A stretch of 64,000 bases of DNA from Ottowia sp. SB7-C50. Lineage in GTDB: Bacteria; Pseudomonadota; Gammaproteobacteria; Burkholderiales; Burkholderiaceae_C. The notes below the pieces were generated by a model. The model had not been told where the DNA came from. It did no database searches and saw only the letters and a program-made list of their open reading frames with translations. Below are positions 843-11,640 of the stretch, in pieces (positions within the stretch are counted from its first letter, which is position 1; the number at the start of each line of letters is the position of its first letter). Both the position numbers and the translations under genes were made by a program. Location: assembly GCF_033110285.1 (NCBI RefSeq), contig NZ_CP136995.1, positions 558,001 through 622,000 of the forward strand, in the 5' to 3' direction.

Positions 843-931
843 GGGGTTCTCCAGTCAGGGATCAAATCGGGCTTGCGCGCTTGTTGATATTGCGCATGAA
901 GCTATCAATAACGTAGCAATGGGGCCGGCGC

Positions 932-2290
<1,359 letters not shown>

Positions 2291-2294
<4 letters not shown>

Positions 2295-4246
2295 GCGTGC
2301 TCCCTGAACGGCGCGGGGCGCAGGTGCAGCGTGAAGCGCGCGCCCTCACCCGGCGCGCTGCGCACCGCAATGCGGCCCCCAAAGCGCTCCAGCGCCGCCT
2401 TGCAGATGGCCAAGCCCAGCCCGGTGCCGCGTCCGCCGTCGGCGCGGCGGCTGAAGAAGGGCATGAAGATCAGCGCCTGCTCGTCGGCGGCGATGCCGCA
2501 GCCGGTGTCGGTGATCGACAGTTCATAGCCCGCTGCGTCGGCATCGGCATCGGCCTCGCCGCTGTGGCGGCCTTCGATGTCGATGCGGCCGCCCTGCGGC
2601 ATGGCGTGCAGCGCGTTGTGGATCAGGTTGACCAGCACCTGGCGCAGCTCGGCCTCGTCGGCCAGCACGCGCATGTCGGCCGGCTCGATGCGCACCGCCA
2701 CCTGCACGCCGCGCGCGCGGCATTCTTCGCCCAGCAGCGCCAGCACGTCGTCCAGCGCCGGCATCACGGCCACGGGCTGCAGCGTGGGCGCGGGCGCCTG
2801 GCTCATCTGCAGCAGGCGCTGGGTGGTGGCCACGCAGCGGTCGATTTCGCGGTCGACCAGCTGCAGGTAGTCGATCAGCTCTTCGCGCGGCATCTGGTCG
2901 GCGCGCAGGCCGCGCAGGCTGGCCTGAAGCGCCAGGCGGATTGAGGCGAGCGGGTTGTGGATTTCGTGCGCCACGCCGTTGGCCAGCAGGCCGATGGTGG
3001 ACAGGCGCTGCTCTTGCGAAAAGCGCACCGAGCGGTCCAGCGGCCGCAGCACCTCGACGGTGAGCGTCTCGCCGCTGGCGGTGACCATGGGGGCGGCCTC
3101 GATGTCGACCTCGACCGCGCTGCCGTCGGCGCGCCGCAGCGCCATCATGCTGCGCACGGGCTGCGGCTGGGCCCGCATCTCGGCCACCGGGCAGTTCACC
3201 AGCGTGCTGGGACAGGGCTCGTCCAGGCCGCGGCCGACGCGGTAGCAGCATTGGCCGGTGACGCTGGCCGGCTCGCGCCCCAGCAGCGTGGCATAGGCCT
3301 GGTTGGCCAGCCGCACGCGGTAGTCGGGGCCGATCACCAGCACCGGGTCGGGCACGGCGTCGATCAGCGTCTGCAGGAAGTGGCGCTGCCCGGCCAGTTC
3401 GGCCACCGTGGCCTGCATGCGCCCGGCCATGTGGTCGAAGCCGCGCGCCACGCGGCCCAGTTCGTCCGGGCCGTGCGCGGCGCTGCCCACGCGCGTGGCC
3501 AGGTCGCCGGCGGCCAGCCGGTCGGTGGCGCCGGCCAGCGCGGCCAGCGGCTCGGTCACCTGGCGGCGCAGCGTCAGCCCCATGATGGTGGCAAACAGCG
3601 CCAGCGTGCCCAGGCCCGCGGCGGTCAGCAGCAGGGCCGGGCGGCTGGTGGGGCCGGCCTGGGCCAGCGGCTCGAAGTCGACCAGCAACACGCCGTTGAC
3701 GGGCTTGGCATCGGCCGGGCCGTGGCACTGCGCGCAGCGCGGCTGGTTGAGGATGGGGTAGGCGATCTGCAAGCGCTCGCCCTGCGGCGTGGCCTGCCAG
3801 CCCAGGCGCGGGGCCGGTGGCAGGCAGCCCGCCTGCAGGCACAGGCCCTGCAGGGCTTCGGGCGCCGCGCTGCCCACGGCCCGCGGCTGCGACGCAAAGC
3901 GCACCGCGCCGCCCGGCGCCAGCAGCCGCGCCTGCGCCACGCCGGGCGACTGGCCCAGGCTGGTCAGGATGTCGGCCATGCCCACCAGGTCGCGCTTGAG
4001 CATGGCGTTCTGCAGGCTGGCTTCAAACAGCCGCGCCTCGCGCGTGGCGGCGGCTTCGTGCTGGCGGCGCAGGCTGTCGCGACCGATGGCCAGCGCCAGC
4101 GTGATGAGCAGCAGCGCCGACACCATCAGCGCCACCGCCAGCCCCAGCATCAGGCGCCGCGCCAGCGACGCGTCGAGCCAGCGCGGAACGACGCCCGGCC
4201 GGGGCGCGGCGGGCGCGGGCAGCGGTGAAGTGGCCAGGCCAGTCAT
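2291..4246 (-). CDS. sensor histidine kinase with periplasmic c-type heme motif
   Basis: About 651 residues. Order: TM1 (residues ~32-54), a periplasmic domain of ~150 residues with a CAQCH c-heme motif at ~171-175, TM2 (~205-230), HAMP, a PAS domain with a cysteine cluster (CCY...PCP...NCP), a HisKA domain with H in GVAHEIHNPL, and an HATPase with N box (NLIHNAL) and G boxes. I chose the ATG at 4246, eight bases after the ferredoxin stop; an upstream in-frame start would overlap that gene. Heme-bearing periplasmic kinase domains can sense redox state, NO or O2, and the PAS cysteines could add redox sensing. It should phosphorylate the adjacent sigma-54 regulator. The signal is unknown. Confidence 0.88.
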
Positions 4247-4254
4247 GGAATGGG

Positions 4255-5292
4255 TCAGGTCTGCACGACCCGGTTGGGCCGCTGTCGCGAACCCGGGGCG
4301 CAAGTGGGGCAGACCGGTAACGAGTGTGGATCGCTGCCAGGCCCCGAGAATTGATGAAAGTCAATGTTGCAGCGCGCGCAGCGCAGGCGCCGCGCGGCCC
4401 AGCGCAGCGGCTCGGCGGCGGCGTCGGCCGGGCTGGGCACGCGCGGCGCCGACACCGCTTGTGTGTCGCAGGCGGCGGTGCACAGGCCGCAGCCGGTGCA
4501 TTTTGAGGCATTGAATCCGAACGTTGCGCTGGCGCAGTCAGCGTCTGCAGCTACAAAAATAAGAGCATTCGTCGGGCACAGGCGCACGCAGGCCAGGCAC
4601 AGGGTGCAGCGCTCGCGGGCGATGTCCACGGTCCACACCGGCTGGGGCGCTGCGCCCGATGAACCGGCGCGGCGCGGCGCAGGTGCGCGGGCCAGCTCGT
4701 CTTCGCGGGCGCTGGTCAGCGTGCCGGCTGCCGGACGGGGCGGGGCGCTGGGGCGCGCCAGAAAGCGGCGTCGGCCGGCGTCGACGGGCGCCTCGGGGCG
4801 CGGGCAGTCGGTAGCTGGCGCGATGCGCAGCGCCACCGGCTGCCGCGTGGCCAAGCCGCGCCACTGGCGTTGCCATTCGGCCAGGCCGGCGCCGCGGTCG
4901 CAGGTGCTGCAGGCGCCGGGCACGAAGACGTGTTCGTCCACCCCATGCTGCCGGCTGAAGGCCTGCAGCCACGCGGGCGACAGCGCCAGCAGGCAGCGCG
5001 CGCTGGGCAATCCGGACACGCCGGCGCGCTCGCAGCTCCACCACGCCGCGCGCCGGCCGTCGGCGGTGGTGCGCCAGTGCGGCGCCGGGGCGGGCAGGGA
5101 AAGGGCTTGCGTGGGGCACGCGGCGGTGCACAGCCCGCAGGCGTCACAGCGGTCGGGATCGAAGCCCAGCCCGTCTTCGCCCATGCGCCAGGCCTGGGGC
5201 GGACAGGCGTCCACGCAGGCCTGGCACGCCGCGCCGCGCACGCGCTGGTGCACGCAGCGGTCGGCGTCAATGGACAGCGTGGGCATCGGCAT
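4255..5292 (-). CDS. multi-cluster 4Fe-4S ferredoxin with C-terminal CxxC pairs
   Basis: A 345-residue cysteine-rich protein. Four ferredoxin-like clusters are visible: one near the N-terminus with unusual spacing (RCVHQ...ACQACVDACP), RCDACGLCTAACP, then in the C-terminal half RCTLCLACVRLCP and KCTGCGLCTAACD. Between them is a ~130-residue spacer with further Cys (SCERAG, GACSTCDRG). The tail has RCARC and CPTC pairs that look like a zinc-ribbon or rubredoxin knuckle. No signal peptide is seen. It resembles NapF/NapG-type accessory ferredoxins and could pass electrons during maturation of the molybdoenzyme. ATGs at 5292 and 5286 are both possible. It lies 17 bp after the chaperone gene in the same operon. 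Confidence 0.75.
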   Translation of the reverse strand: MPMPTLSIDADRCVHQRVRGAACQACVDACPPQAWRMGEDGLGFDPDRCDACGLCTAACPTQALSLPAPAPHWRTTADGRRAAWWSCERAGVSGLPSARCLLALSPAWLQAFSRQHGVDEHVFVPGACSTCDRGAGLAEWQRQWRGLATRQPVALRIAPATDCPRPEAPVDAGRRRFLARPSAPPRPAAGTLTSAREDELARAPAPRRAGSSGAAPQPVWTVDIARERCTLCLACVRLCPTNALIFVAADADCASATFGFNASKCTGCGLCTAACDTQAVSAPRVPSPADAAAEPLRWAARRLRCARCNIDFHQFSGPGSDPHSLPVCPTCAPGSRQRPNRVVQT

Positions 5293-5309: not shown

Positions 5310-6035
5310 CTAGCCGCTGCAACCACCCGGCCGGGGCGGCTCGGCGGCCACCGCGGGCGGAATGACCGCGACGGCGGGCAGGCGGCGCTGGCATTCCTCG
5401 CAGGCGGCGAGGGTGAGCGCGCCGAGCGCGGCGTAGAACGGGGTGGCGGCACGCTGGCCGACGCGGCGCGCGAAGTCGGGCAGCCAGGCCAGCAGGTGCG
5501 TCTTGAGAAAACGCGCGGCTTCGCGCTGCTCGCCGCGCTCCAGCAGCAGGGCGGTAAATTCGAGCTCGTGCGTGATGTGGTCGTCGGCGCGGGCGCGCCA
5601 GTCGGGCACCTGCATGCCATGGCGACGGTAGAAGTCGCGCACGGCGAAAGTGGGGCCTTGCAGCATCAGGTGGTCGTCGTCGCGCCACACCGATTCGTGC
5701 GGCGACGCGCGCAGCGCATGCGTGAGGTAGATGGCCGCATAGTCGGCCGCCAGGTCGTCGGCGCTGGACGCGGGCAGCGCGCCCTCGGCCGGCGTGCCGT
5801 CGCAGTCGTCGCCGGCCAGTGCGCGCAGTGCGGCGTACATGGCCTGCGCCGCCGGCGTGTCGAGCGTGGCGAGGGTCAGCGTTTCGGGGAAGCCGTTGCC
5901 GAACAGCGCGGCCAGCACGTCGGGGCTGCGCTCTTCGGCGTGCAGCCAGGCCAGCGCCCGCAGGTCCTCGGCGGCCAGCGCCAGCCATTCGGCGGGCGGG
6001 GCCGTGCGTTCAGCCAGGGGCGCGGCGGCGGTCAT
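5310..6035 (-). CDS. TorD/DmsD-type molybdoenzyme chaperone
   Basis: A 241-residue cytoplasmic, mostly helical protein. The central stretch DDHLMLQGPTFAVRDFYRRHGM followed by DDHITHELEF matches the TorD/NarJ family signature (E..D..A.ELEFM). These chaperones bind the Tat signal peptide of a DMSO-reductase-family enzyme, hold it until the molybdenum cofactor is inserted and prevent early export. The start is set by the ATGA overlap with the stop of the iron-sulfur subunit gene (6032-6035), which implies translational coupling. Its client should be the Tat-exported catalytic subunit encoded at 6791-9403. The C-terminal tail is Pro/Gly/Cys-containing and poorly conserved. Confidence 0.85.
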   Translation of the reverse strand: MTAAAPLAERTAPPAEWLALAAEDLRALAWLHAEERSPDVLAALFGNGFPETLTLATLDTPAAQAMYAALRALAGDDCDGTPAEGALPASSADDLAADYAAIYLTHALRASPHESVWRDDDHLMLQGPTFAVRDFYRRHGMQVPDWRARADDHITHELEFTALLLERGEQREAARFLKTHLLAWLPDFARRVGQRAATPFYAALGALTLAACEECQRRLPAVAVIPPAVAAEPPRPGGCSG

Positions 6036-6778
6036 GACGATGCCTTGCCAGCCGGGGCCGCAGGGGTGGCGGGCGCGGCGGCGGGCGCCTCGACCTTGCC
6101 CTTGGGGTGGGCGATGAACACGATCGACGGGTTGGTCAGCTCGGGGTTGGCCATGTGCTGCACCTGGCGCACCGGCTGATCGACGCCCTTGACCATGGCC
6201 TTGGTGTCCCAGGTGCCGGCGCGCAGCTGGTCGATGGGGCCGATGTCGAGCACGCGCATCATGCAGGCCGACACGCAATACGGCTTGCGCCCAGCTTCCA
6301 GCTCGTCGATGCACAGGTTGCACTTCTTGACCGTGTTGTCGGTCGGGTCGTACTGCGGCGCGCCAAACGGGCAGGTGGCTTCGCAGCGGCGGCAGCCGAT
6401 GCACAGCGTGCTGTCGATGTCGACCACGCCGTTGTCGGCGCGCTTCCAGATGGCGCCGGTGGGGCAGGCCGGCAAACAGGCCGGCTCGGCGCAGTGGTTG
6501 CACGACATGTTGACCTTGTAGGCGAACACGTCCGGGAAGCTGCCGCCTTCGATGTACATGACGCGTCGAAAGCGCGGGCCGGGCGGCAGGCCGTTCTTGT
6601 CCTTGCAGGCGATCTCGCAGGCCCGGCAGCCGATGCAATCCATGTTGTTGTGGATGAAGCCCCACTGCTGCTCGGGCTTGACCGGGTTGTAGGTGGTGGC
6701 GTCGCGCGTTTCCTGCGCGTACTTCACGCGCGCCTTGGCGTCCACGCCCAGCTTGTTGATGACTTGTTTTTCAGCCAT
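6032..6778 (-). CDS. DMSO-reductase-type iron-sulfur subunit (DmsB/NrfC-like)
   Basis: A 248-residue protein with the four cysteine clusters of DmsB-type electron-transfer subunits: CIGCRACEIACKDKNG (~residue 48), CNHCAEPACLPACP (~95), CIGCRRCEATCPFG (~128) and a fourth formed by KKCNLC plus YCVSACMM (~152-170). It would carry electrons through four [4Fe-4S] clusters to the molybdenum subunit encoded just upstream. There is no signal peptide, as expected for a subunit exported by piggy-back with a Tat partner. The Ala/Pro-rich C-terminus is a variable tail. The start is 12 bp after the stop of the catalytic subunit gene. Confidence 0.92.
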   Translation of the reverse strand: MAEKQVINKLGVDAKARVKYAQETRDATTYNPVKPEQQWGFIHNNMDCIGCRACEIACKDKNGLPPGPRFRRVMYIEGGSFPDVFAYKVNMSCNHCAEPACLPACPTGAIWKRADNGVVDIDSTLCIGCRRCEATCPFGAPQYDPTDNTVKKCNLCIDELEAGRKPYCVSACMMRVLDIGPIDQLRAGTWDTKAMVKGVDQPVRQVQHMANPELTNPSIVFIAHPKGKVEAPAAAPATPAAPAGKASS

Positions 6779-6790
6779 GTTCTTCTCCCG

Positions 6791-9403
6791 TCACATATCG
6801 CGGCGGAACACCGATGAACGCGCCACGGCCAGGTCGTCCCAGCCGGGGCGGTGCACCAGGTCGGTCTTCTTGATCTGCACCATGGCGTTGTTGTAGGCAA
6901 AGGCGCCGGCGGGGCTGGGGTTGTCCAGCGTCAGGAAGTCGGGGTTACCGGCGCGGTCGACGCCGTTTTTGTCCGGGTCCATCCACGCGCCCTCGAACAG
7001 CACCAGCACGCCGGGCAGCAGGCGCTCGGTCACGTAGGCCGGCACCACGCACTTGCCGCGCTCGTTCCACACCTCCACCGTGTCGCCGGTCTTGATGTCG
7101 AGCTTCTTCGCGTCGCTGGCGTTGATGGTGACTTCCTGCTCATACGTCTCGCGCAGCCACGGGATGTTGTTGAAGATCGAGTGCGTGCGCCAGCGCGGGT
7201 GCGGGCTGATCAGGTGGAACGGGTACTGCTTGGCGATGGGGTGGTTGAGCGACTCAAACGGCTCGATCCACTTGGGTATGTAGGGGATCTCGTAGCCGTA
7301 CTGCGTCTTCGTCCAGTCGGTGATGTCGGCCAGTTGCGTGGCCAGAATTTCGATCTTGCCCGACGGTGTCTCGAACGGCTTGCCCTTGGTGATCTGCTCG
7401 CGGAAGGCGACGTGCGGCTCCGACAGCTTGAACTTGTAGGTGCCGTGCTTCTTGAACTCGTCCCACGACATGGTCACGTGCTGGTGGTGCTGCACGCTGC
7501 CTTCCCACCAGGCCTTGAGGTAGGCCTCGTCGGTGGCGTCGGGGTTCTGGAAGTAGCTGCGGTCGGCGCGCGGGTTGTAGCGCTTGCCCAGGTTTTTGAG
7601 CGATGGGTCCAGCGCTTCGAGCCGGTAGCTGAGTTCGGTGAAGACCTGGAAGTCGGTCTTGCTCTCGCCCAGCGGCTCGATGACTTTCGGGCGATGGATG
7701 TAGTAGTGGCCCTTGTACCAAGGCAGCGCCACGTCGTGGCGCTCAAAGTGGGTGGCAATCGGCAGCAGGTAGTCGGCCCAGATGCCCGAGGGCGTGATGG
7801 TCGAATCCATGCACACCACCAGCTCCAGCTTCTCGATGGCCTGGATTTCCTTGTTGATGTTGGTCAGCTGGTTGAACCAGTCGCTGCCCTGCCAGAAGAT
7901 GCCCTTGATGTTGGGCGGCTGGCCGTCCAGCTTGTCTTCGCGCGGCCACAGGCCCAGTTCTTCGCGCTTGACGTTGGGGTAGTTCAGCACGCAGTGCGCC
8001 CAGCGGTCGGACTTGATGGAGGCCCACCACAGGTTGGCGTTTTCGTCGTAGGGGTAGGCCACGCTCTCGCTGTGCCACGCCTTGCCTACGCCCTCGGCGC
8101 AGCCGCCCAGAATGCCGATGTTGCCCGTCATGGCCTGCAGCGCAGCGGCCATGCGGTTGTACTGCTCGCCATAGCTGGCGCGGCCCGGCGCCCACGACGC
8201 CTTCAGCGCCGCAGGCTTGGTCTTGGCGTACATCTCGGCCAGCTTGATGATGTCTTCGGCCTTCACGCCGCAGATGGCGGCGGCCCACTCGGGCGTCTTG
8301 GGCGTCTTGTCGTAGGTGCCCAGGATGTAGTCCTTGAAGTTTTCCTTGCCCTTGTAGTCGCCCGTGGTGGTGCCCGCATCCATCCCTAAGCAGAACTTGT
8401 TGATGAACTTCTGGTCCTGCAGGTTGTTGGTGAAGATGTGGTGCGCCATGCCGGCCATCATGGCGGCGTCGGTATTGGGCTTGATGGGAATCCACCACGC
8501 GTCGTACACGGCGGCCGAATCGGTGTACTGCGGATCGACCAGCACGAACTTGCAGCCGCGCTGCTTGGCCATGCGCATGTAGTAGAAGGTGTTGCCGCCG
8601 TGGAAGGTGTAGGCCGGGTTCCAGCCCCACATGATGATCAGCTTGCTGTGGGCAAAGGTGTCGTCCTCGTTGCCATCCTGGATGGTGCCGAAGGTCATGC
8701 GGCTGGAGAACGTGGTGCCCTGGTAGCTCGGCACGCTCCATGAGTTGGTGCGGCAGCCGAACATGCCCAGAAAGCGGCCCAGCAGCCCCTCGATCTGGTC
8801 CGACTTGTGCAACACGCCGTAGCTGGCGCCGGCGTAGCTTTGGTCGAGCAGCGCCGTGGGGCCGAAGTCCTTCTTCAGCTGTGTCATCTTCTGGGCGATC
8901 TCGTCCAACGCCTGGTCCCAGCTGATGCGCTTGAACTTGTGCTCGCTGCGCGCACCCACGCGCTTCATGGGGTAGAGCAGCCGCTCGGGCGAATACAGGC
9001 GCGCACGATATGACCGGCCGCGCAAGCAGGCGCGCAGCTGGGGCTCTTCGAACGTGTCCTTGCCGTAGGCGCCATTGGCCTGGTATTCGCCGTTGTCGGT
9101 CGACAGGCGCACGATCACGTCGCCCTTCTTGTGCGCCACCAGCACGTGGCGCGAGCCGCAGTTGTGCGCGCAGGACGTCACCACGGTGGTGAGCTGGTCG
9201 TCGGTGAAATAGGGCTCGTAGGCAAAGGCCTGGGCCTTCTCGGGGGCGATGCCCACGCCCACGCTGACCAGGCCCGCCGCGCCGGCGGTGGCGCCGACGA
9301 TCTTCAGGAAGTCGCGCCGCTTGTAGCCGGCCGAATGCTGGTCGATGGAGTCGTTGACGCTGGGGTAGCGCACGGTTTCGCGGGGCAAGTCATTGCTCTT
9401 CAT
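6791..9403 (-). CDS. DMSO-reductase-family molybdopterin oxidoreductase, catalytic subunit
   Basis: An 870-residue enzyme. The N-terminus has a Tat signal (RRDFLK then a hydrophobic segment ending near AQAFA, ~residues 29-60). A CxxxC motif (CAHNCGSRH, ~78) plus a later Cys (LRACLRGR) is the type-II/III layout for the FS0 cluster. The molybdopterin-binding core includes WSVPSYQGTTFSSR, where a Ser is a candidate molybdenum ligand, MWGWNPAYT and GNIGILGG. The C-terminal dinucleotide-binding domain ends with HRPGWDD. Family members reduce S-oxides, N-oxides or oxyanions in the periplasm. The closest look is DmsA-like, but the substrate cannot be read from sequence. It overlaps the pentaheme cytochrome gene by 4 bp. 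Confidence 0.9.
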   Translation of the reverse strand: MKSNDLPRETVRYPSVNDSIDQHSAGYKRRDFLKIVGATAGAAGLVSVGVGIAPEKAQAFAYEPYFTDDQLTTVVTSCAHNCGSRHVLVAHKKGDVIVRLSTDNGEYQANGAYGKDTFEEPQLRACLRGRSYRARLYSPERLLYPMKRVGARSEHKFKRISWDQALDEIAQKMTQLKKDFGPTALLDQSYAGASYGVLHKSDQIEGLLGRFLGMFGCRTNSWSVPSYQGTTFSSRMTFGTIQDGNEDDTFAHSKLIIMWGWNPAYTFHGGNTFYYMRMAKQRGCKFVLVDPQYTDSAAVYDAWWIPIKPNTDAAMMAGMAHHIFTNNLQDQKFINKFCLGMDAGTTTGDYKGKENFKDYILGTYDKTPKTPEWAAAICGVKAEDIIKLAEMYAKTKPAALKASWAPGRASYGEQYNRMAAALQAMTGNIGILGGCAEGVGKAWHSESVAYPYDENANLWWASIKSDRWAHCVLNYPNVKREELGLWPREDKLDGQPPNIKGIFWQGSDWFNQLTNINKEIQAIEKLELVVCMDSTITPSGIWADYLLPIATHFERHDVALPWYKGHYYIHRPKVIEPLGESKTDFQVFTELSYRLEALDPSLKNLGKRYNPRADRSYFQNPDATDEAYLKAWWEGSVQHHQHVTMSWDEFKKHGTYKFKLSEPHVAFREQITKGKPFETPSGKIEILATQLADITDWTKTQYGYEIPYIPKWIEPFESLNHPIAKQYPFHLISPHPRWRTHSIFNNIPWLRETYEQEVTINASDAKKLDIKTGDTVEVWNERGKCVVPAYVTERLLPGVLVLFEGAWMDPDKNGVDRAGNPDFLTLDNPSPAGAFAYNNAMVQIKKTDLVHRPGWDDLAVARSSVFRRDM

Positions 9404-10272
9404 TTCTTCTCTCCCGACGTCACGGCGGCGGCGATGAAACGCACTTCACTTTCGGTGGGGCGGCTCTTGGCCCAGTCGGGCACTTCAGGCGGCATGCCCG
9501 GCCAGGCATGGCGCGGATACGGGTAGTGCGTGCGGTACCAGGCACGGCCGCCGTGGCAGCCATAGCAGACGTCGCCGTTGGTCTTGCCGGCCTCTTCGAT
9601 GGCCTTGGCGTTCAGGTAGTTGACCTGGTGGCGCGTGGTGCGAATCGCGGCATGGCACAGCAGGCAGTTGTTCTGGAAGGCTTCCTTCGACTGTGACCAC
9701 GGGCCGGGCAGGCCCATCACCTCGAAGTTCATCTTGCCGTGGCACTTGAGGCACGTGGTCTCGGGGTTGACCATCTTGCGCAGCGTCTGGTGACCGAAGT
9801 CGGTGGCGGAACTGCCGGTGGCTTCCTCACGCGGGTCGTTGCCTTCGTGGCAGGTCGTGCAGCGCATGTTCATCAGCTGCTTGGCCATGGCCGTTTCGAG
9901 GTGGCGGCGGTGGAAGGTGTCCTGCTCGCCCTGGTAGGTGGAGGTGACCTGATACCAGGCCTTGGCTTCGCTGGAGGGCACGCCCGCAGGAGACGCCTTG
10001 CGCACCGACGGCTTCAGCACTTCGGCGTGGCACGCCAGGCATTGCTGGTCGGTTGCCTTCTCGATGGCGGGCTTGAAATGGATGGGGTCGTACTTGGCCG
10101 CGTGGTAGCTGACGGGCTTGGCGGTGGCGGGCGCGGCGGCTGCGGGGGCGCTGGGAGAGGGGGCGGCTGCGGTGGTCGCAGGCGCGCTCGAATCCTGGCA
10201 GGCACCCAAGGCCAGTGCCATGGCCGCTGCAGCGCTCAACCGGGAGAGAAATCTGAGCCAGGACGCGTTCAT
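9400..10272 (-). CDS. pentaheme c-type cytochrome lipoprotein
   Basis: A 290-residue exported protein. The start is placed at the ATG at 10272 because it yields a clean signal peptide with a lipobox (ALGAC, Cys at residue ~25), followed by an Ala/Pro/Thr-rich linker. Five CxxCH motifs are visible in order: CLACH, CTTCH, CLKCH, CLLCH and CYGCH, with extra His for axial ligation (FHRRH, TRHQVNY). It would be anchored to a membrane by lipid and move electrons in the periplasm. It is translationally coupled (ATGA overlap) to the molybdoenzyme, so it is probably the enzyme's electron donor or acceptor, in place of the usual DmsC/NrfD membrane subunit. Confidence 0.88.
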   Translation of the reverse strand: MNASWLRFLSRLSAAAAMALALGACQDSSAPATTAAAPSPSAPAAAAPATAKPVSYHAAKYDPIHFKPAIEKATDQQCLACHAEVLKPSVRKASPAGVPSSEAKAWYQVTSTYQGEQDTFHRRHLETAMAKQLMNMRCTTCHEGNDPREEATGSSATDFGHQTLRKMVNPETTCLKCHGKMNFEVMGLPGPWSQSKEAFQNNCLLCHAAIRTTRHQVNYLNAKAIEEAGKTNGDVCYGCHGGRAWYRTHYPYPRHAWPGMPPEVPDWAKSRPTESEVRFIAAAVTSGEKK

Positions 10273-10388: not shown

Positions 10389-11078
10389 TCACTTGTTGCC
10401 GGACATGCCGCCCATGCCGGACATGCCACTCATGCCTTGCTGGCCAGACATGCCGCTCATGCCCGACATGCCGGACATACCGCTCATGCCAGACATGCCG
10501 CTCATACCCGACATGCCGGACATGCCGCTCATGCCGCTCATGCCCGACATGCCGCTCATGCCTTGCTGGCGAGCGCGCTTCTTCTTGTTGGCCTTTTTCT
10601 TCTTGGCAGCGGCCTTGGCCTTGTTGCCCGACATGCCGGACATACCCGACATGCCCTTCTGGCCCGACATGCCGCTCATGCCCGACATGCCTTTCTGGCC
10701 GGACATACCGCTCATGCCGCTCATGCCGGACATGCCACCCATGCCGCTCATGCCCGACATGCCTTGCTGGCCGGACATACCGCTCATGCCAGACATGCCG
10801 CTCATGCCCGACATGCCCGACATGCCGCCCATGCCAGGGTTCTGCTCGCCGGCGGCGGGCTTGTTGCCGCTCATGCCGCTCATGCCCGACATACCGGACA
10901 TGCCGGACATTCCGCTCATGCCAGACATGCCGGACATACCCGACATGCCCTTTTGACCCGACATGCCGGACATGCCAGACATGCCGCTCATGCCGGATTG
11001 CTGCGCCATGGCGGGCAGGGCGAAGCCGAGAGCGGCAGCCATGACCGACAGACCGAGTGCTTTACGAACCAATTTCAT
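10389..11078 (-). CDS. secreted methionine-rich (Met-Ser-Gly)n repeat protein
   Basis: A 229-residue protein. Residues 1-25 are a Sec signal peptide ending ALPAMA. The mature ~204 residues contain 50 Met in strict three-residue spacing as MSG (three are MGG), in blocks of 2-13 triplets separated by QKG, QQG, NK or short linkers. One Lys/Arg/Ala-rich segment (~residues 152-170) interrupts the array. The mature part has no Cys, His or aromatic residue. Ser codons are mixed (AGC, AGT, TCC, TCG, TCT) and Gly codons vary, which argues for protein-level selection rather than fresh DNA slippage. The AAGGAGAT ribosome site decides the start. No family is recognised. Possible roles are a sacrificial methionine oxidant sink (as for MrpX of Azospira) or Cu(I) binding through MxxM motifs. 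Confidence 0.85.
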   Translation of the reverse strand: MKLVRKALGLSVMAAALGFALPAMAQQSGMSGMSGMSGMSGQKGMSGMSGMSGMSGMSGMSGMSGMSGMSGNKPAAGEQNPGMGGMSGMSGMSGMSGMSGMSGQQGMSGMSGMGGMSGMSGMSGMSGQKGMSGMSGMSGQKGMSGMSGMSGNKAKAAAKKKKANKKKRARQQGMSGMSGMSGMSGMSGMSGMSGMSGMSGMSGMSGMSGMSGQQGMSGMSGMGGMSGNK

Positions 11079-11623: not shown

Positions 11624-11640
11624 AGCAACTTGCTTGCCAA
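11624..11640 (-). promoter_or_regulatory. sigma-54 (-24/-12) promoter
   Basis: Read on the minus strand this is TTGGCAAGCAAGTTGCT: a GG at -24, a GC at -12, exactly 10 bp between them, and TTGCT matching the TTGCW half. The predicted start near 11613 lies ~27 bp upstream of the ATG at 11586. The operon encodes its own sigma-54 activator with an intact GAFTGA loop, which supports the call. Confidence 0.72.

Follow-up and report, generated by a model that had tools for sequence, protein, structure and literature searches.

The secreted methionine-triplet protein encoded in the window (the whole stretch of 64,000 nucleotides from Ottowia sp. SB7-C50 that was analysed) is a member of a conserved set of M-x-G triplet proteins linked to a cytochrome-coupled subfamily of DmsA-like molybdoenzymes that has its own two-component regulator genes. 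From comparisons of the sequences and their genomic setting, we tentatively propose that the gene cluster may be a periplasmic module for methionine oxidation and repair, a rechargeable methionine shield that would be restored by the enzyme; this is the reading we favour, with reservations.

The methionine-triplet protein and its gene cluster

The triplet open reading frame (ORF) comprises 229 residues, with AAGGAG, a good ribosome-binding site, shortly 5′ of the ATG, and its signal peptide was judged by eye to end with ALPAMA, ahead of QQ. The mature protein contains 62 Gly, 48 Ser and 50 Met (25% of its 204 residues), and all 50 Met are part of M-S-G or M-G-G triplets, to which three QKG and three QQG steps are added. 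Pro accounts for 2 of the 204 residues, and there is no C, D, F, H, I, L, T, V, W or Y in the mature protein. A previous, sequence-only reading of this DNA had described a signal peptide and a mature protein of about 204 residues with 50 Met, one at each third residue, and with no Cys, His or aromatic residue, and the ORF and its composition bear this out. That reading had also claimed that the repeat is kept at the protein level, for which the codons speak: the 50 triplets use seven middle-position codons, three Gly codons and 11 distinct 9-mers while M-x-G stays constant, and the DNA of the array has diverged, its TRF rows having 63-81% matches. The pN/pS of 0.55 from a crude pairwise count adds little weight because switches between the AGY and TCN codons of Ser were scored as non-synonymous. 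Among 18 triplet ORFs including that of the window, the spacing from Met to Met is exactly three residues 806 times and six residues, the next commonest value, 77 times. The middle residue in the 18 proteins is mostly Ser (506) or Gly (207), followed by Arg, Asn, Tyr, Glu and Gln, and the arrays differ widely in length. The sole Pfam match of the window's protein is Collagen (PF01391, 86.8 bits, cut-off 27.2), which arises because Gly occupies each third place, as in Gly-X-Y, and which may be purely compositional; a collagen adhesin identity was rejected, the Pfam and NCBIfam matches being judged compositional.

The genes of the cluster all lie on the same strand (Table 1). The gene for c4, a small predicted periplasmic protein, and the triplet gene are followed by those for a pentaheme cytochrome, the DmsA-like molybdoenzyme with an FeS subunit, a TorD-like chaperone and a ferredoxin; a histidine kinase with CxxCH and an NtrC-type regulator complete the set. 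The earlier claim that the triplet gene lies in an operon with an S/N-oxide-type molybdoenzyme is supported by this common strand and by the recurrence of the genes in other genomes. The c4 protein has no match in NCBIfam or Pfam; an alignment of 11 rows has 15 invariant columns, and AlphaFold gave a poor model (mean pLDDT 57.5, pTM 0.30). The invariant positions of this family, which is located near the molybdoenzyme, read G, RP, AP, GxW and GM..YDxR. Sigma-54-like sites scoring at least 9 occur near c4 in 7 of 18 loci, where random windows of these loci lead one to expect 1.18; no site of that score lies near c4 in the remaining 11.

Table 1. Features of the methionine-triplet cluster in the window
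Feature	Coordinates	Strand	Remarks
Sigma-54-type promoter-like site TGGCAAGCAAGTTGCT	11624..11639	-	just upstream of c4; agrees with the consensus at 10 of 11 positions
c4, small predicted periplasmic protein, 114 aa	11242..11586	-	upstream of the triplet gene; cluster-conserved, 17/30 stretches
Met-triplet protein gene	10389..11078	-	signal peptide, then 204 mature residues: M-S-G array, QKG/QQG steps, one Lys-rich break
Pentaheme c-type cytochrome	9400..10272	-	five CxxCH; lipoprotein-like signal LALGAC (by eye)
DmsA-like periplasmic molybdoenzyme, 870 aa	6791..9403	-	Tat motif RRDFLK
DmsB-like ferredoxin-type FeS subunit	6032..6778	-	TIGR02951 194 bits, cut-off 214; Fer4 domains
TorD/NarJ-type chaperone	5310..6035	-	PF02613 80 bits, cut-off 22
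Ferredoxin-like multi-[4Fe-4S] protein	4255..5292	-	cluster-conserved
Histidine kinase, CxxCH in sensor region	2291..4246	-	domain matches and motif
NtrC-type response regulator	855..2294	-	receiver PF00072 and sigma-54 activator PF00158, GAFTGA

The CxxCH in the sensor region is present in 13 of the 15 members of the kinase cluster (c6) that have at least 400 residues, and its conservation suggests a haem c sensor. The kinases keep a single CxxCH in the sensor part, within NP..N...C..CHG. GAFTGA is found in 9 of the 11 members of the regulator cluster (c7) that have at least 300 residues. In the frame of the window's regulator, Pfam identifies no C-terminal DNA-binding domain, and this may be due to a frame change in the sequence.

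Conservation of the cluster in other genomes

Whole-genome searches with the molybdoenzyme covered a family draw of 250, an order draw of 349 and a class draw of 321 genomes. Matches at E ≤1e-100 were present in 5 of the 250 family genomes, and at E ≤1e-150 in 9 of the 349 order genomes and 15 of the 321 class genomes, the window's genome being counted in both of the latter. One of the five family genomes (G126) was rejected as a cluster member, its enzyme being a DmsA with 70% identity to that of E. coli, and the cluster set, with this genome left out, comprises 26 genomes and 27 loci. The ORFs around the enzyme were clustered over 30 stretches, which include G126 as a control and the second halves of two split loci. 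The FeS subunit recurs in 25 of these, the cytochrome in 23, the chaperone (c3) in 20 (a count made with the window's own ORF masked by an overlapping one), c4 and the ferredoxin in 17 each, the kinase in 14 and the regulator in 13, the last two counts possibly taking in a few relatives from outside the cluster.

In 22 of 26 testable loci, a Met-triplet ORF is found upstream of the cytochrome gene or, in loci with no cytochrome gene at that place, upstream of the enzyme gene; the 22 include five that are cut by a contig end (G886, G750, G596, G812 and G764), and the locus of G718, which is cut off, falls outside the 26. The neighbourhood is thus conserved in relatives, a point on which the sequence-only reading had staked its proposal. 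In the remaining four testable loci (G432, G315, G710 and the second copy of G620) no triplet ORF was found upstream of the enzyme, so the enzyme need not be accompanied by a triplet gene; G710 and the second copy of G620 also lack a cytochrome gene ahead of the enzyme. The usual gene order is c4, triplet gene, cytochrome, and four loci (L180, L181, L182 and L187) have the order triplet gene, c4, cytochrome. A short GYFKITPQGQIFFYP-type motif is repeated within three triplet proteins (L188, L194 and L196). The same stretches encode another predicted periplasmic repeat protein, c9 (L188:5757-6635, L194:5707-6531, L196:4844-5683), in which a motif resembling RGWxVxxDxxGxLLLYP recurs several times; this motif is similar to the one inside their triplet proteins.

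A complete annotated cluster is carried by the conjugative plasmid pEJ01 of Rhodobacter xanthinilyticus, where the triplet protein (WP_198037905.1) is annotated as 'hypothetical protein', the chaperone counterpart as TorD family and the regulator as sigma-54 dependent. The pentaheme cytochrome of this cluster has an extra N-terminal cytochrome c domain, and six CxxCH are found in one more locus. The extra N-terminal part, with one more CxxCH, was seen in L315 (NZ_CP017782.1, 6394-7866), where Pfam assigns it to Cytochrom_C, and in L191.

The methionine sulfoxide reductase MsrP scores above its cut-off in 18 of the 26 cluster genomes and in 18 of 24 genomes without the cluster. Because MsrP is equally common with and without it, the cluster is not a simple replacement for MsrP, and that candidate role was discarded.

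The molybdoenzyme subfamily

Nine members of the molybdoenzyme subfamily were compared and share 68-87% identity with one another and 34-37% with E. coli DmsA and YnfE; the enzyme of G015 is 94% identical to that of the window. On the NCBIfam model dmsA_ynfE (TIGR02166) the window's enzyme reaches 599 bits, below the cut-off of 777.7, and it scores 224 bits on the type II model and 43 bits on the arsenite-oxidase-type model. Matches to PF00384 (154 bits) and PF01568 (77 bits) place it in the DMSO-reductase family in the wide sense, and its best solved relatives are the Rhodobacter DMSO reductases 1eu1 (241 bits) and 1dms (226 bits), which are distant. By alignment, a conserved Ser in VPSY corresponds to the GDYSS segment of DmsA, within which a Ser is, we take it, the Mo ligand; the first FeS motif, also by alignment, reads CxxxCG.RH...C, with His replacing the third Cys of DmsA. 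Because identity to DmsA and YnfE is only 34-37%, it is quite possible, judging from the sequence, that the substrate of the enzyme would be something other than Met sulfoxide.

If so, the substrate might be iodate, chlorate, selenate or some similar oxyanion or oxide, and the role of the triplet protein would be limited to scavenging reactive intermediates made in the periplasm, for example hypohalous acid; its repair, if any, would fall to MsrP. We consider this unlikely, although precedents exist: MrpX and YedYZ accompany perchlorate reductase in this way (PMC10746228, PMC4623255), and in Shewanella the reduction of iodate reportedly depends on an essential DMSO-reductase operon (PMC11302344). 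The presence of MsrP in 18 of the 26 cluster genomes is in keeping with such scavenging. However, the scores on the type II and arsenite-oxidase-type models are far lower than that on dmsA_ynfE, and neither cytochrome c peroxidase nor chlorite dismutase was recognised, by reading of the clusters rather than by model search, among the ORF clusters c0-c9 that are common to at least three stretches.

Genome-wide coupling of the MSG pattern with the enzyme

The class and order draws were scanned with a DNA pattern for three M-x-G triplets, the first and third of which had Ser-type codons. Among the class genomes it matched 14 of the 15 that have the enzyme and 2 of the 306 that lack it (Fisher 1.7e-21), and among the order genomes 8 of the 9 that have it and 4 of the 340 that lack it (Fisher 8.8e-13); with the window's genome removed the figures are 13 of 14 (p 3.2e-20) and 7 of 8 (p 2.3e-11), all of these p-values being too strong because the genomes are related. 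The association between enzyme and MSG pattern is plain. In some genomes, for example G710, G764, G718 and G432, the matching pattern is on a contig other than that of the enzyme. The two genomes that have the enzyme and no pattern are G620, which has M-R-G and M-Y-G triplets, and G315, which has no triplet ORF near the enzyme. Among the six with the pattern and no enzyme, G859 encodes a true triplet protein and is of the same genus as a cluster genome, and the matches of G252 and G219 are multicopper oxidases by Pfam; those of G833, G266 and G410 were rejected as triplet proteins since, by eye, they look like chance frames. The first DNA pattern used had matched 26 of the 250 family genomes, of which G015, G063, G233, G115, G235 and G219 were examined.

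A reverse scan of species genomes, which used the DNA pattern alone (six M-x-G triplets), returned at least 118 stretches, and by eye GroEL-like MGG tails dominate the matches listed. Among these listed matches, 14 of the 25 stretches with at least four MSG in the best frame hold other parts of the cluster. The carriers listed are Rhodobacterales, Marimonas arenosa, Hyphomicrobium, another member of the Hyphomicrobiales, Thiodiazotropha, a Lamellibrachia endosymbiont, Chromatiaceae, other Gammaproteobacteria and Accumulibacter; within the same listed matches, a Phyllobacteriaceae MAG has c4 only and three of the gammaproteobacterial stretches have the kinase and c4 only. The remaining 11 of the 25 listed comprise four that run off the end of the sequence (L056, L121, L128 and L126, the last being likely a chance frame), two multicopper oxidases (L066 and L075), an MSG-tailed PQQ dehydrogenase (L072), an MSG-tailed cytochrome c (L055), a triplet protein of Sedimenticola with no cluster in the available stretch (L125) and two other proteins (L090 and L122).

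MSG arrays on other envelope proteins

At least 5 of the 26 cluster genomes have MSG arrays on unrelated envelope proteins. G491 has MSG tails on a cbb3-type cytochrome c and on a periplasmic binding protein, G432 and G462 have them on HlyD/CusB-type adaptors, one of which weakly matches CusB_dom_1 (32 bits), and G710 has one on an EF-hand protein. In the window's genome (G000), a helix-hairpin-helix (ComEA-like) protein ends in an MSG tail (L009:4392-4943, minus strand), and the matches of this protein in four relatives end before the tail. The same genome has an MSG linker between an H+-pyrophosphatase and an OmpA domain, both by Pfam (L010:2385-5102, plus strand; G000:C1:2322384-2325101), and the fusion is present with no MSG array in three congeners, which leaves the window's genome alone among those compared. 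The idea that array DNA was copied into either place from the triplet gene is not supported, the longest common strings not being clearly above those obtained with shuffled triplet order (the observed length was reached in 19 of 300 shuffles for the helix-hairpin-helix tail and in 258 of 300 for the pyrophosphatase linker). The tail of this genome's own GroEL-type protein, which Pfam assigns to the chaperonin family, matches the same DNA pattern.

In public protein matches the array accompanies cytochrome c, NapC-type, DsrE and OmpA domains, part of these domain names being presumed by us from the accession numbers, and one match (P0087) bears the name Cu(I)/Ag(I) efflux fusion protein. MSG tails on NapC-type quinol dehydrogenases exist in the public proteins P0003, P0038 and P0067. 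An MSG-tailed NapC-type quinol dehydrogenase was rejected as the general electron donor, its tail being unmatched in the cluster genomes: a search with P0003 found matches in 18 of the 26, and among the matches listed none of the 29 NapC-region rows passes query residue 218, the thirtieth row being the array of the helix-hairpin-helix protein in G000. A PQQ dehydrogenase of Paracoccus sanguinis (L072:2663-4819) has a long MSG tail. Inserts of M-T/S/A-G are found in four Pfam-confirmed multicopper oxidases (L066, L075, L265 and L266), which occur without the cluster and form another recurrent place for Met triplets.

The M-S-G array could conceivably be a 'methionine tail' that is portable and of general use in the bacterial envelope. 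Such tails would act as redox buffers that can be recharged on unrelated proteins, and they would be tolerated and useful mainly where a dedicated cytochrome-linked Met-sulfoxide reductase is present, the oxidised ones even serving as a protein-bound electron acceptor. The stand-alone triplet protein, the cbb3-type cytochrome c, the HlyD-type adaptors, the periplasmic binding protein, the helix-hairpin-helix protein and the H+-pyrophosphatase/OmpA linker would all be instances of it. We offer this as speculation and doubt that it is correct.

The same distribution might instead be that of a scaffold or docking polymer, in which a Met-lined chain with Gly at every third residue (polyproline-II-like, collagen-like or phase-separating) would hold the cytochrome, the molybdoenzyme and other envelope proteins together, Met serving for packing and not for oxidation. 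The strict three-residue register in which both Gly and Met are kept, the match to the Collagen profile and the arrays on cytochromes and other envelope proteins are what such a chain would lead one to expect. Several of the array-bearing proteins, however, have no known tie to this electron chain (the helix-hairpin-helix protein, the H+-pyrophosphatase/OmpA linker, the HlyD-type adaptors, the periplasmic binding protein and the EF-hand protein), Pro is scarce by comparison with collagens (2 of 204 residues), and the pyrophosphatase linkers of three congeners manage without an array, and we hold a scaffold to be quite unlikely.

The multicopper oxidases and adaptors bear on another explanation, that successive M-x-x-M motifs buffer Cu(I) or Ag(I) by binding soft metal ions, the cluster being a metal-handling unit. 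Met-rich copper proteins are well known, M-x-x-M runs along the entire triplet protein, and besides the M-x-G inserts of the four oxidases there are the tail-bearing HlyD/CusB-type adaptors of G432 and G462 and the name given to P0087. We nevertheless judge metal buffering very improbable, as reading of the clusters c0-c9 common to at least three stretches revealed no copper gene, the window's protein has neither His nor Cys, and the enzyme linked to it is a molybdoenzyme.

Least probable to us is that the array is a low-complexity sequence with no selected function, spread by repeat slippage. Arrays do come and go, as the pyrophosphatase linker with MSG in G000 and not in three congeners illustrates, the helix-hairpin-helix matches in four relatives stop short of the tail, and array lengths vary widely. 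Against slippage stand the operon place of the triplet gene, which is kept across named Alpha-, Beta- and Gammaproteobacteria, the strong genome-wide coupling with the enzyme, and the constancy of M-x-G while the codons vary.

A proposed cycle of methionine oxidation and repair

In the oxidation-and-repair cycle that we favour, the dense and presumably exposed, flexible Met residues of the array would be converted to Met sulfoxide by oxidants reaching the envelope, and the Tat-exported molybdoenzyme with its FeS subunit would reduce the sulfoxides on the array. Electrons would be fed to the molybdoenzyme by the pentaheme cytochrome in place of the quinol anchor DmsC; this substitution is suggested because no DmsC-like gene recurs, by reading of the clusters, among c0-c9 common to at least three of the 30 stretches. 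The CxxCH-bearing kinase and the NtrC-type regulator would switch the cluster on, probably with sigma-54, and the MSG tails on other envelope proteins of cluster genomes might be served by the same enzyme.

In favour of the cycle are the place of the triplet ORF in 22 of the 26 testable loci, the genome-wide coupling of the MSG pattern with the enzyme, the 14 of 25 listed stretches of the reverse scan that hold other cluster parts and the presence of the complete cluster on a conjugative plasmid. The enzyme itself is nearest to DMSO and S/N-oxide reductases and has a Tat motif and a conserved Ser aligned with the presumed Mo-ligand segment of DmsA. According to one study (PMC7402097), DmsA- and DorA-type enzymes reduce free Met sulfoxide and DorA also reduces the protein-bound form; at 3 mM, DorA acts on the peptide QWGAGM(O)QAEED about three times as fast as on TTPGYM(O)EEWNK. 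By analogy, Gly before Met, as in the faster peptide, is what the triplets would offer. DmsA, however, is reported to reduce only the R-sulfoxide, which might put half the sulfoxides of a chemically oxidised array beyond reach. Also against the cycle, four loci have no triplet ORF and MsrP is no rarer in cluster genomes, and the extra cytochrome c domain or sixth CxxCH would fit an enzyme working in the oxidative direction as well.

No description of M-S-G repeat proteins, of the spread of MSG tails or of the cluster was found in the open-licence PMC literature searched. If the proposed cycle is correct, the strategy of a Met sink plus repair, as in MrpX/YedY1, would have been invented a second time from unrelated parts and would have spread over Alpha-, Beta- and Gammaproteobacteria, at least once via a conjugative plasmid. 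The named carriers include Rhodobacterales, Accumulibacter, Thiodiazotropha and the Lamellibrachia symbiont, of which the last two are presumably sulfur-oxidising symbionts of animals. An uncharacterised family of DmsA-like enzymes would gain a candidate substrate supplied by its own operon, and protein Met as a reversible redox store would become directly testable, the near-pure repeat also being an unusually clean substrate on which to model the chemistry of Met oxidation.

Comparison with known systems

The C-terminal GGM tail of GroEL resembles the array in its Gly-Met triplets and in the DNA pattern that they share. Unlike the triplet protein it is short, has MGG and not MSG, and belongs to an unrelated, cytoplasmic protein. 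In Bacillus cereus, Met residues of exoproteins were proposed to be an antioxidant recycled by MsrAB (PMC5526929); there too Met of secreted proteins would be recycled by a reductase, but MsrAB is thiol-dependent and the accessible text of that paper mentions no triplet protein (PMC5526929).

The DmsEFABGH system of Shewanella likewise joins DmsAB to a multiheme cytochrome, and the cytochrome of the window has a weak match to the DmsE model (31 bits, against a cut-off of 192). The Shewanella system is one of a decaheme cytochrome and an outer-membrane porin, and we know of no triplet protein in it. DorA of Rhodobacter sphaeroides is, like the window's enzyme, a periplasmic member of the DMSO-reductase family, and it was shown to reduce Met sulfoxide in proteins (PMC7402097). 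The window's enzyme is, however, distant in sequence from the Rhodobacter DMSO reductases. To our knowledge, DorA has no FeS cluster and no dedicated gene for a Met-rich substrate. With DmsABC and YnfEF of E. coli the cluster has in common the enzyme family, the FeS partner, a TorD/NarJ-type chaperone, Tat export and a conserved Ser aligned with the presumed Mo-ligand segment; it differs in the 34-37% identity of the enzyme, in the His that stands for the third Cys of the first FeS motif, in having a pentaheme cytochrome and no recurring DmsC-like gene, and in the addition of the triplet protein and c4.

The nearest parallels are MrpX of Azospira suillum, a proposed sacrificial oxidant sink beside YedYZ, a Mo-dependent Met-sulfoxide reductase (PMC8315932, PMC4623255), and BcrX, which is described as homologous to the Azospira protein, has MXKDX repeats and is encoded with MsrQP-type genes under the control of an ECF sigma factor (PMC8315932). 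An operon of this kind, with a Met-rich MXKDX protein and MsrQP-type genes, contributes to HOCl resistance (PMC8315932). The comparison with MrpX and YedY1 made in the sequence-only reading holds as an analogy, in that the gene for a small Met-rich repeat protein lies next to that for a Mo enzyme, and fails for the repeat and for the reductase family. MrpX and BcrX have the MXKDX repeat, whereas the window's protein has M-S/G-G triplets, no Asp and hence no MXKDX. Their partners are MsrP, of the sulfite-oxidase family, and MsrQ, in contrast to the DMSO-reductase-family enzyme, FeS subunit and pentaheme cytochrome found here; MsrPQ is not co-encoded with the triplet gene, the only MsrP match of the genome being at G000:C1:2975328-2976278, outside the window. 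Control by an ECF sigma factor likewise contrasts with the two-component, sigma-54-type regulator of the present cluster. The principle of a Met sink plus repair is already known from MrpX/YedY1, and the repeat, the enzyme branch, the electron supply and the regulation are all different here.
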